64,000 nucleotides of DNA from positions 1 through 64,000 of the forward strand of contig NZ_RHOC01000004.1 in NCBI RefSeq assembly GCF_003946145.1, given 5' to 3'. Below, in pieces: positions 52,948-54,845 of the stretch; positions within the stretch are counted from its first letter, which is position 1, and each line of letters opens with the position of its first letter. The position numbers were made by a program, and so were the translations under genes. The DNA comes from Levilactobacillus huananensis (GTDB taxonomy: Bacteria; Bacillota; Bacilli; Lactobacillales; Lactobacillaceae). The notes beneath the pieces are model-generated. The model was given only the letters and a program-made list of their open reading frames with translations, was not told the origin of the DNA and did not search any database.

Positions 52948-53217
52948 TTACCGGGCAGCCAGAACCAGGTTGGTGAAGGTGGTACGCTGGTCGATCGTCA
53001 TCTTGTGCGTCTCCACCAAAGCGCTGTCCACGTCGACCCAGCTATTCCCATCATTGTTGGACCAGATAATGTCAGGCTCGGTCATGGGGTCTTCGTCGAG
53101 GCCTTCAGGGGTGAAGATGGTGAGATCTTGGGCGAGACGCGTGACCTCGACATCGGTCAGCGTGCCGGATAACCAGGCGGTGGCTATGGAGAGTAGGGAA
53201 AGTTTGGTGTTTTTCAT
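52948..53217 (-). CDS. Hypothetical small protein (89 aa)
   Basis: Not recognised. NTKLSLLSIATAWLSGTLTD may be a weak hydrophobic start, but there is no clear cleavage site. The rest is acidic with TIFTPEGLDEDPMTEPDIIW. GAGGGGAG before the ATG and a strong terminator after the stop support expression. It lies beside a CRISPR-like remnant and the sigma-factor operon but has no evident link. Confidence 0.6.
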   Translation of the reverse strand: MKNTKLSLLSIATAWLSGTLTDVEVTRLAQDLTIFTPEGLDEDPMTEPDIIWSNNDGNSWVDVDSALVETHKMTIDQRTTFTNLVLAAR

Positions 53218-53291
53218 TGCGGCACTCCCCTCTTTTAATTTTGCTTATGGATTAAGTATAGTTTTTTGACTGACCAATATAATTATGTTTG

Positions 53292-53393
53292 GTCCCCACT
53301 ACGGTCAAATCAACAGACCTTAGACCCGAAGATTTACCAGACAGCCTAGGGGGTGGGGTCCCTACTACAGTCAAATCAACGGACCTTAGACCT
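53292..53393. CRISPR. Two-repeat remnant of a CRISPR array, type II-A-like
   Basis: Two 36-bp direct repeats (53292-53327 and 53358-53393) agree at 32 of 36 positions and are separated by exactly 30 bp, the repeat/spacer geometry of type II-A arrays. Reverse-complemented, each reads GGTCTAAGGTC then TTGATTTGAC and ends GGGAC, similar in the TTGATTTGAC core and GAC end to lactobacillar type II-A repeats. No cas gene or tracrRNA is visible in the window. A protein frame (53289-53585) that spans them has no ribosome site and was rejected. Other parts of 53218-53635 hold no gene. Confidence 0.5.
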
Positions 53394-53635
53394 GTTAAAT
53401 TTTATTCACTTAACCATAGCGCTTACGGTGAACAATTGTCCTGGATAAGCTCAAAGTACAAACCTAAACGGTGGCAGTTTATTTTAACCGTCGTTAACGA
53501 CCGGATCGGCCGTAGTAATAATTCATTAACACTTACCCTTAGCTTACTACCACTTAAAGAGTTGAACAACACTCAGACATCCTGAATATATACATTTTCG
53601 CGTTTTACAACTATATTGAAATTTTTCTCCAAAAG

Positions 53636-53680
53636 CCAAAAAGGCGACCGCATCCCTCTCGGAGACCGGTCGCCCTTTCA
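53636..53680 (-). terminator. Terminator of the sigma-factor/DUF2922 operon
   Basis: Minus-strand GGCGACCG / CGGTCGCC stem with a ~14-nt loop, followed by TTTTTGGC. Confidence 0.8.
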
Positions 53681-53708: not shown

Positions 53709-53948
53709 TTAGGCCGTTGGTGCGGGCACAACCGGCGCGACCAAGCTGGTCTTGGTGGTTTCAATCATGTCGGCACTCACGGGTTCGGCGTACAGGTCAC
53801 CGCCATCCTTAACGAACAACCGAGCGGCCGCAATCTTAGCCATGAGGGCTTCGATTTCCTTAGGCTTCAAATCAGTGTTGATGTACTTCAACCGGAGATG
53901 CTTGACGCGCTTATCGGTACCCTTAAAACTCATTTCTAGTGCTTTCAT
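53709..53948 (-). CDS. DUF2922 family protein (79 aa)
   Basis: KALEMSFKGTDKRVKHLRLK, then KIAAARLFVKDGGDLYAEPVSADMIETTK (residues about 40-68) is a clear match to DUF2922 as I know it. Such genes usually follow a DUF1659 gene and a sigma-factor gene in Firmicutes. No signal peptide; function unknown. Last gene of a three-gene operon, 34 bp after the DUF1659-like gene. AGGGAAG before the ATG. Confidence 0.85.
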   Translation of the reverse strand: MKALEMSFKGTDKRVKHLRLKYINTDLKPKEIEALMAKIAAARLFVKDGGDLYAEPVSADMIETTKTSLVAPVVPAPTA

Positions 53949-53982
53949 TGATGGAGGACTTCCCTTCTTCGTTGGCTAGGCG

Positions 53983-54180
53983 TTAGGCAACGGTGCTTTG
54001 CGTGGAGACGGTGGCAGTGCGAAACGTGAGGCCGGTTAAGGTCGCGAGCGTCGCGCCAAAATCAGCAATCTGCGTGGCTTCCGGGGCGCTGATGGCGTTT
54101 TGTAACGCGATCTTGACCGGATGGTCGCCGTCGTCGATGAAGATAAAGGTGATGGTCGTTTTCTTCCAGTTCGTTTGCAT
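53983..54180 (-). CDS. DUF1659-like small protein (65 aa)
   Basis: TITFIFIDDGDHPVKIALQN followed by FGATLATLTG and a Ser/Thr-rich tail fits the short DUF1659 pattern (strand, NG/GD turn, FG and LTG helix), though the match is moderate. ATG with GGAG 8 nt upstream. It lies between the sigma-factor-like gene and the DUF2922 gene, which is the usual setting of that family. Confidence 0.65.
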   Translation of the reverse strand: MQTNWKKTTITFIFIDDGDHPVKIALQNAISAPEATQIADFGATLATLTGLTFRTATVSTQSTVA

Positions 54181-54284
54181 GGTGGTACTCCTTCCGTGGG
54201 ACTGAATTTTGTAGGAGTTGGCTAACCCTTACACGACTACTAACGAATTTCGGCCCGATTTTTTCGCACCTTTTCGCCAATAAC

Positions 54285-54845
54285 TTAAAGAAATCGGTCC
54301 GGTGGGGTTAACTGTTCAACCAATCGTCGGGTTAGTGAACGCCGCCAGCGATACACCGTCGCGACATTCACATCATGGCGCGACGCGATCTCGGCAATCG
54401 TCAGCTGATCAATTAAAGTCCCTACCAGAAAACGCCACTCGCCGGTCTTGCCGGCCGCCCCAATCAGCTTCACCAGATACATCCGATAGTCACTCAGGCC
54501 GATCTGCGCCAACACATCTTCATCCTTCGCCAGCGTCGCCAACAGTGTCGCCTGATCGCCGGGCGCTTGATAATCGTCTTGACGCCGATCCCGCCGCAGT
54601 TGGTCCGCCAGCTTCCACGTGATTTTCTGTTGCGCATAAGCCAAGAACTGGTGCGGCTTAGCTTCCGGATCATCCGGGAACTCGGCGTAGACCGTCGGAA
54701 AGAGTAGCCGAGCCTCTTGCAGGTAGTCCTCGTAATCCGCATGAGTGGGTGTCAAGTGCAGGCGTTTCAAGGCCCCATACAGGATCGCCTCGTGGTCGCC
54801 AGTAAATAAGAAGCGGTAAGCCGGTGTCACATCGTTGTCCATCAT
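54285..54845 (-). CDS. Sigma-70-like factor (SigH/ComX or SigO-like, 186 aa)
   Basis: Residues about 35-80 (YEDYLQEARLLFPTVYAEFP, then HQFLAYAQQKITWKLADQLR) look like sigma region 2, and residues about 145-178 (LTIAEIASRHDVNVATVYRW, then RRSLTRRLV) form a region-4 HTH. No anti-sigma gene is next to it. Followed by DUF1659-like and DUF2922 genes, a combination seen in many Firmicutes. Whether it controls competence or only its own operon cannot be read here. The start has AGGGA 6 nt upstream. Confidence 0.75.
   Translation of the reverse strand: MMDNDVTPAYRFLFTGDHEAILYGALKRLHLTPTHADYEDYLQEARLLFPTVYAEFPDDPEAKPHQFLAYAQQKITWKLADQLRRDRRQDDYQAPGDQATLLATLAKDEDVLAQIGLSDYRMYLVKLIGAAGKTGEWRFLVGTLIDQLTIAEIASRHDVNVATVYRWRRSLTRRLVEQLTPPDRFL

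Follow-up and report, generated by a model that had tools for sequence, protein, structure and literature searches.

The window analysed here, a 64,000-nt stretch of the Levilactobacillus huananensis genome, carries a two-repeat unit in the intergenic stretch at 53267..53600. A 36-nt repeat (53291..53326, + strand) is followed by a 30-nt spacer (53327..53356, +) and by a second 36-nt repeat (53357..53392, +) with three substitutions relative to the first; the unit is given in the orientation that aligns its repeats with the Cas9-associated repeats of the genus. The two copies are direct repeats with 33/36 identity and a period of 66. Because the spacer's match to its chromosomal source (see below) covers exactly 30 bases and the flanking bases differ, the ends of the repeats are fixed from both sides. 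A preliminary description of this DNA had recognized the unit, and its 36-bp repeats and 30-bp spacer are real, although the frame had been set one base late and the identity counted as 32/36 rather than 33/36.

The unit's repeats are the only pair of 36-mers in the window with at least 31/36 identity at periods of 55-90, and no pair with at least 33/36 appeared in 40 first-order Markov windows that served as a chance control. Elsewhere in the 2.29-Mb, 35-contig genome, no other copy of the full repeat, or of 23-nt and 20-nt parts of it, was found with up to 3 mismatches, and a search beside the unit for decayed extra repeats flanking the pair yielded none. A 98-aa ORF (53289-53585, +) reads both repeats in frame, the 66-bp period being 22 codons; it matches no Pfam family and is taken as a mechanical consequence of the period.

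In three close relatives, the flanks of the intergenic stretch enclose different DNA, approximately 2 kb long. The counterpart in G009 (L075:1714-3685, on G009:C1), the sole relative scanned, encodes an AAA ATPase and a RloB-family protein. A small hotspot of defence genes may therefore lie here. Adjoining the unit is an 89-aa ORF (52948..53217, - strand) that matches no Pfam family and is 78-81% identical in three close relatives. On the other side, a DUF2922 gene, a 65-aa ORF and a gene with a helix-turn-helix match form a small putative operon (53709-54845, -), a region that is 86% identical in three close relatives. Among 34 other genus genomes, one per species and with at most eight candidate places per genome scored in one of the comparisons, nothing matched 53267-53600 except the spacer, and no single-copy 36-mer, the state expected before integration, was found.

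The spacer matches the phn operon of the host

When 181 bases around the unit were used as a query, the match besides the unit itself covered exactly query positions 88-117, which correspond to the spacer, at 30 of 30 bases. This protospacer (G000:C30:195388-195417, minus strand) lies outside the window on the same contig, 142 kb from the unit. It lies in an operon for a phosphonate/phosphite transporter, where it spans the phnC stop codon and the ribosome-binding region of phnE, and the spacer reads as the sense strand of this phnC stop/phnE Shine-Dalgarno junction. The match runs exactly to the border of each repeat and no further. The NCBIfam models for PhnC and PhnE are over cut-off at this operon, and its truncated binding protein passes TIGR01098 and fails the PhnD equivalog. 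By our calculation, a chance match of a 30-mer in 2.29 Mb has a probability of approximately 4e-12.

Matches to the spacer were found in 4 of the 58 genomes searched, namely the own genome and three relatives of the same genus, in which the orthologous phn site agrees at 28 or 29 of 30 bases. Both the spacer and the phn operon of the same genome read AGGGGG where all three relatives read AGGAGG. This pattern, which involves four sequences, suggests that the spacer was probably copied in the organism's own lineage, after the change from AGGAGG to AGGGGG. The preliminary description had pointed to phages and plasmids as places to look for the spacer. These comparisons were negative: the spacer had no match among plasmids, the spacer with its flanks gave two weak phage matches, both outside the spacer, and the first 24 of its 30 bases had no match in viral contigs. 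The source is the host chromosome.

Cas systems of the genome, genus and family

A search for Cas9 (NCBIfam TIGR01865) gave no match in the own genome, whereas the same search gave matches that pass the cut-off in 14 of the 35 genomes of the genus. The genus genomes are the positive control for this search, since no match passed the cut-off in the 14 named control genomes. A search with the Pfam model Cas9_REC was uninformative because no control matched, and TIGR01865 was used instead. The orphan status proposed for the unit at the outset is supported.

The sole Cas1 found in the genome is of type I-E. It belongs to a CRISPR-Cas system on contig C32 (L099:9562-20000 and L100 from 592 on; G000:C32) in which domain models for Cas1e, Cse3, Cas5e and Cas3 pass and that for Cse1 falls below cut-off. 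Beside cas1 is a 296-aa ORF that may be a Cas2 fused to a DnaQ-like exonuclease. The two I-E arrays, with 20 and 33 repeats, have a period of 61 (once 62) and a repeat core of 28 nt as read, a ruler that the 36/30 arrangement of the unit does not fit.

Arrays were called by a script that required at least three exact 20-mers at a period of 60-72 (55-80 for the genus set) and misses short arrays. In the genus, 12 of the 16 Cas9 regions fetched contained 14 arrays, with 36-nt repeats (one called 37) and a period of 66, in a few cases 63 or 67. Among 269 spacers from eight of the genus Cas9-associated arrays, 262 are 30 nt long. Cas9 is over cut-off in 162 of 397 family genomes, and 80 family regions together with the 16 from the genus gave 92 arrays, 85 with 36-nt repeats. 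At the G009 locus, Csn2 and a type II Cas1 pass their cut-offs, which types it as II-A; the other genus Cas9 loci are presumably II-A as well. The 36/30 ruler of the unit is thus that of Cas9-associated arrays in the genus and family, which bears out the II-A geometry first ascribed to it. At G027:C6, G022:C70/C44, G033:C14 and G008:C58, Cas9 matches are interrupted, split or partial. Loss of the Cas9 system may be recurrent in the genus, with contig ends explaining some of the broken matches.

The site of the G009 II-A locus is empty in this genome

In G009, the II-A locus has a membrane-transport gene on one side and an oligopeptide-binding-type gene on the other. The own genome has these two flank genes as well, at 84-91% identity, 339 bp apart and with no cas gene between them; no II-A remnant above background was detected within these 339 bp. 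When 13 genus Cas9 regions were compared, G009 and G034 shared both flanks and five more shared one. The site is empty and holds no recognizable II-A remnant, so the former presence of a system is something that we infer: it is plausible that a II-A system once stood there and was lost in the organism's own lineage. The locus site of G009 and G034 is a different chromosomal place from that of the unit.

The repeat resembles type II-A repeats in part

A reference set of 76 unique repeats was assembled from 91 arrays in 83 family Cas9 loci. The best identity of the unit's repeat to any of them is 20/36, a value that 3% of 1500 random 36-mers from the own genome also reach. Family repeats, compared with one another, have best identities of 21-36/36, all but one at 25 or above. 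A profile was made from 70 of the 76 repeats, oriented by likeness to a typed consensus, after those that were not 36 nt long or lacked 20 nt of leader context were dropped. The full repeat scores best against this profile at offset 0 on the + strand. For both copies, repeat positions 15-36 score at a level found at a fraction of approximately 6e-5 of own-genome positions, whereas for positions 1-14 of the two copies, 31% and 21% of such positions score as high or higher. The lactobacillar likeness claimed for the repeat stands as a weak but in-phase match at positions 15-36 and fails at positions 1-14, with 20/36 as the best value overall.

The GTTTTAG-like 5' part of II-A repeats pairs with the tracrRNA. 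Such a segment is missing from both copies here. Judged by sequence likeness, the repeat departs from the normal II-A type, its last 22 bases resembling the family consensus and its first 14 not. Because the odd 5' part is common to both copies, the repeat would have been non-canonical before it was duplicated. A search of the genome for anti-repeats, which allowed up to 3 mismatches against the 20-nt and 23-nt parts of the repeat, gave none; bulged anti-repeats could escape it. The 23-nt core, again with up to 3 mismatches, was not found in 396 other family genomes, and the repeat had no match in viral contigs. Three matches to the two-copy core in genome collections, in unrelated bacteria, were rejected because they resemble tandem repeats or a gene for a repeat protein.

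The conserved genus leader is absent beside the unit, by comparison with a profile of 10 genus repeats that leaves out the outlier repeat of L036 (G014, small Cas9). Likeness to leader-repeat junctions was better in the - orientation in two separate comparisons. In the one made at three context sizes, with the set of 70 family repeats, the fractions obtained were 0.061, 0.020 and 0.0045 in the - orientation and 0.16, 0.083 and 0.061 in the + orientation, the last value of each series (0.0045 versus 0.061) being that for the longest junction context (-10..+8). In the + orientation the sequence adjoining the first repeat is a poor leader, and in the - orientation the likeness is confined to the junction. 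A G is present at both integration borders of the unit. The earlier description of the unit as the trailing end of a locus since lost or moved elsewhere is not supported, given the missing 5' segment and leader, a repeat beyond the family range, and a G009/G034 II-A site that lies elsewhere and is empty here.

The protospacer flank fits a motif drawn from five genus spacers

From the 269 spacers taken from genus arrays, 93 were sent for comparison, and five had protospacers in other genus genomes. The 3' flanks are TGGAA, TCGAA and AAGAA for array L030 and GTAAA, twice, for the G009 array (L034), which combine to NNRAA. In the + orientation, the phn protospacer is followed by CAAAA, which fits this five-spacer motif (background 3.9%); the flank in the other orientation, TCAGA, does not. 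The L034 pair alone would permit a stricter motif that CAAAA fails. Protospacers in phages were also sought: the L035 and L026 arrays gave no match, and weak matches were obtained for the L034 array (14 records) and the L029 array (two records); the motif was taken from the genus protospacers instead. The clues to orientation conflict, since repeat likeness and the PAM favour + and the leader-repeat junction favours -.

Spacer number 3 of L030 (the G024 array) has 93-100% matches in 12 further genomes of the genus; in all 11 loci that were read, the 3' flank is TGGAATGCC. Its target is perhaps a widespread mobile element, which is a guess.

Origin of the unit

Spacer integration is the only process known to us that would place a copy of exactly 30 bp from a distant part of the chromosome between direct repeats of 36 bp. 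It is very probable that some CRISPR integrase made the unit, whatever the type of site on which it acted. The specific origin that we favour, with a confidence just past the halfway mark, is off-target ('neo-CRISPR') ectopic integration by a II-A adaptation complex that is now absent. Such a complex (Cas1-Cas2 with Csn2 and Cas9), since lost, would have captured 30 bp of the phnC/phnE junction. The fragment would most likely have been integrated at a non-array chromosomal site resembling a II-A repeat, and integration would have duplicated 36 bp of the target site to give repeat, spacer and repeat. A single spacer is flanked here by a repeat-length duplication of host DNA, the arrangement by which neo-CRISPR loci are recognized; that a II-A complex was the maker and that the site lay outside an array we infer, and the duplicated DNA would not already have been an array.

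Several observations support ectopic integration: the 30/30 spacer match without extension, the shared AGGGGG, the 36/30 ruler, the CAAAA flank, the G at both borders, the odd 5' segment in both copies, the absent leader and the empty II-A site. Others weaken it. No relative was found with a single 36-mer, the orientation clues conflict, and the PAM comes from five spacers, of which the G009 pair would allow a motif that CAAAA fails. The empty II-A site keeps no recognizable remnant of a former system, and three differences between the repeats against none between the spacer and its phn source are, by our estimate, mildly unusual. In addition, positions 15-36 are too II-A-like for an arbitrary site (approximately 6e-5), a feature that also suits a decayed array.

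This last point leads to the main rival, which is serious and which we regard as a real, if lesser, possibility. The unit might be what is left, after decay down to a single spacer, of a true II-A array from a divergent lineage of repeats, in which self-targeting favoured the loss of cas9. The 36/30 geometry, the in-phase likeness of positions 15-36 to the family consensus and the fit of the phn protospacer flank to the five-spacer PAM all speak for such a relic, as do the three sites at which the repeats already differ, and self-targeting spacers can reportedly accompany disrupted systems (PMC6990116). A relic array fits less well with a repeat that reaches at most 20/36 in comparison with the 76 family repeats, where genuine repeats reach 21-36, and whose 23-nt core (up to 3 mismatches) occurs in none of the 396 other family genomes; the leader and further repeats are absent, and the 5' segment is missing from both copies. 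Under either the ectopic or the relic reading, the unit is probably inert today and its self-match tolerated, because no Cas9 and no matching anti-repeat were found and the 5' segment that pairs with tracrRNA is lacking.

A regulatory role for the unit is improbable. A weak promoter-like site (9 of 12 positions; 53610..53639, - strand), recognized as a consensus match, might start minus-strand transcription across the unit, and such a transcript would reach the 89-aa ORF at 52948..53217; four promoter-like sites occur in 1151 bases, compared with a mean of 1.0 in shuffles. As a Cas-free regulator, this RNA would carry a 30-nt perfect antisense to the Shine-Dalgarno sequence of phnE, the phosphonate permease gene, and would lower phnE translation. 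The position of the spacer over the phnC stop and phnE ribosome-binding region is what such a role would call for, and the cited passages of PMC11788318 speculate that array transcripts could regulate without interference machinery. However, shuffled sequences fold as well as either strand of the unit does, the promoter is a consensus match, the repeat alignment and PAM give the sense orientation, and a spacer would overlap some start region by chance in approximately 5% of cases by our estimate. If this reading were true, off-target CRISPR adaptation would have created a trans-acting RNA gene, and a lost immune system would have left a regulator behind.

Two further origins are similarly improbable. 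An ordinary short duplication or regulatory repeat that by coincidence flanks a copied fragment would be in keeping with a repeat that is in no other array or genome searched, but the lack of any other known process for such a copy and the chance expectation for the 30-mer match make this very improbable. Off-target integration by the organism's own type I-E Cas1-Cas2, the least likely of all, has in its favour that a I-E system with two arrays is present, but is rejected on geometry.

Relation to known systems

To our knowledge, natural cases of off-target integration are few; Nivala and colleagues reportedly worked with the type I-E system of E. coli and pointed to natural candidates from Yersinia pestis and Sulfolobus islandicus. 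In the open-access literature searched, no natural II-A spacer integration outside an array was found. Overexpressed Cas1-Cas2 can integrate outside arrays, as stated in the cited part of PMC11788318 (citing Nivala et al. 2018). For II-A Cas1-Cas2 of Streptococcus thermophilus, low-level off-target integration in vitro prefers G and sites that resemble leader-repeat junctions, and the authors regard these events as likely half-site integrations (passages of PMC6895254). With neo-CRISPR loci from off-target Cas1-Cas2 integration, as reportedly described by Nivala et al. (2018), the unit shares one spacer between duplicated host sequence outside a canonical array. It differs in its II-A ruler, its self-derived spacer and a pre-integration site that was not found among genus relatives.

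The G009 II-A array (L034) and other Cas9-associated arrays resemble the unit in their 36-nt repeats, 30-nt spacers, core CAAATCAA and a compatible protospacer 3' flank. Unlike them, the unit has a single spacer at a different chromosomal site, and no GTTTTAG 5' segment, genus leader, Cas9 in the genome or detected anti-repeat accompanies it. Orphan mini-arrays are known, including I-F orphan arrays of E. coli and mini-arrays of viruses; those with self or cas-targeting spacers are likewise small and without cas genes, and some have chromosomal targets (cited sections of PMC8616872). The target of the unit is instead a transporter operon. Virus mini-array repeats mostly match host arrays, according to the same sections (PMC8616872), whereas the repeat of the unit matches none found. 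Ectopic spacer insertion in S. thermophilus, in the part of PMC8047081 cited, is also II-A integration at an unusual place, but it occurs inside an array and the unit stands alone. Self-targeting spacers are common, making up 0.4% of spacers and occurring in 18% of CRISPR-bearing genomes in one survey (figures from the cited part of PMC6990116).

The unit bears on how CRISPR arrays come into being at places apart from existing ones. It is a concrete natural candidate for such an event, one that combines the II-A ruler with a spacer taken from the organism's own DNA and assignable to a lineage. The unit is likewise an example of how a genome may tolerate a spacer directed against itself, since no Cas9 was found and the repeat lacks the pairing segment.
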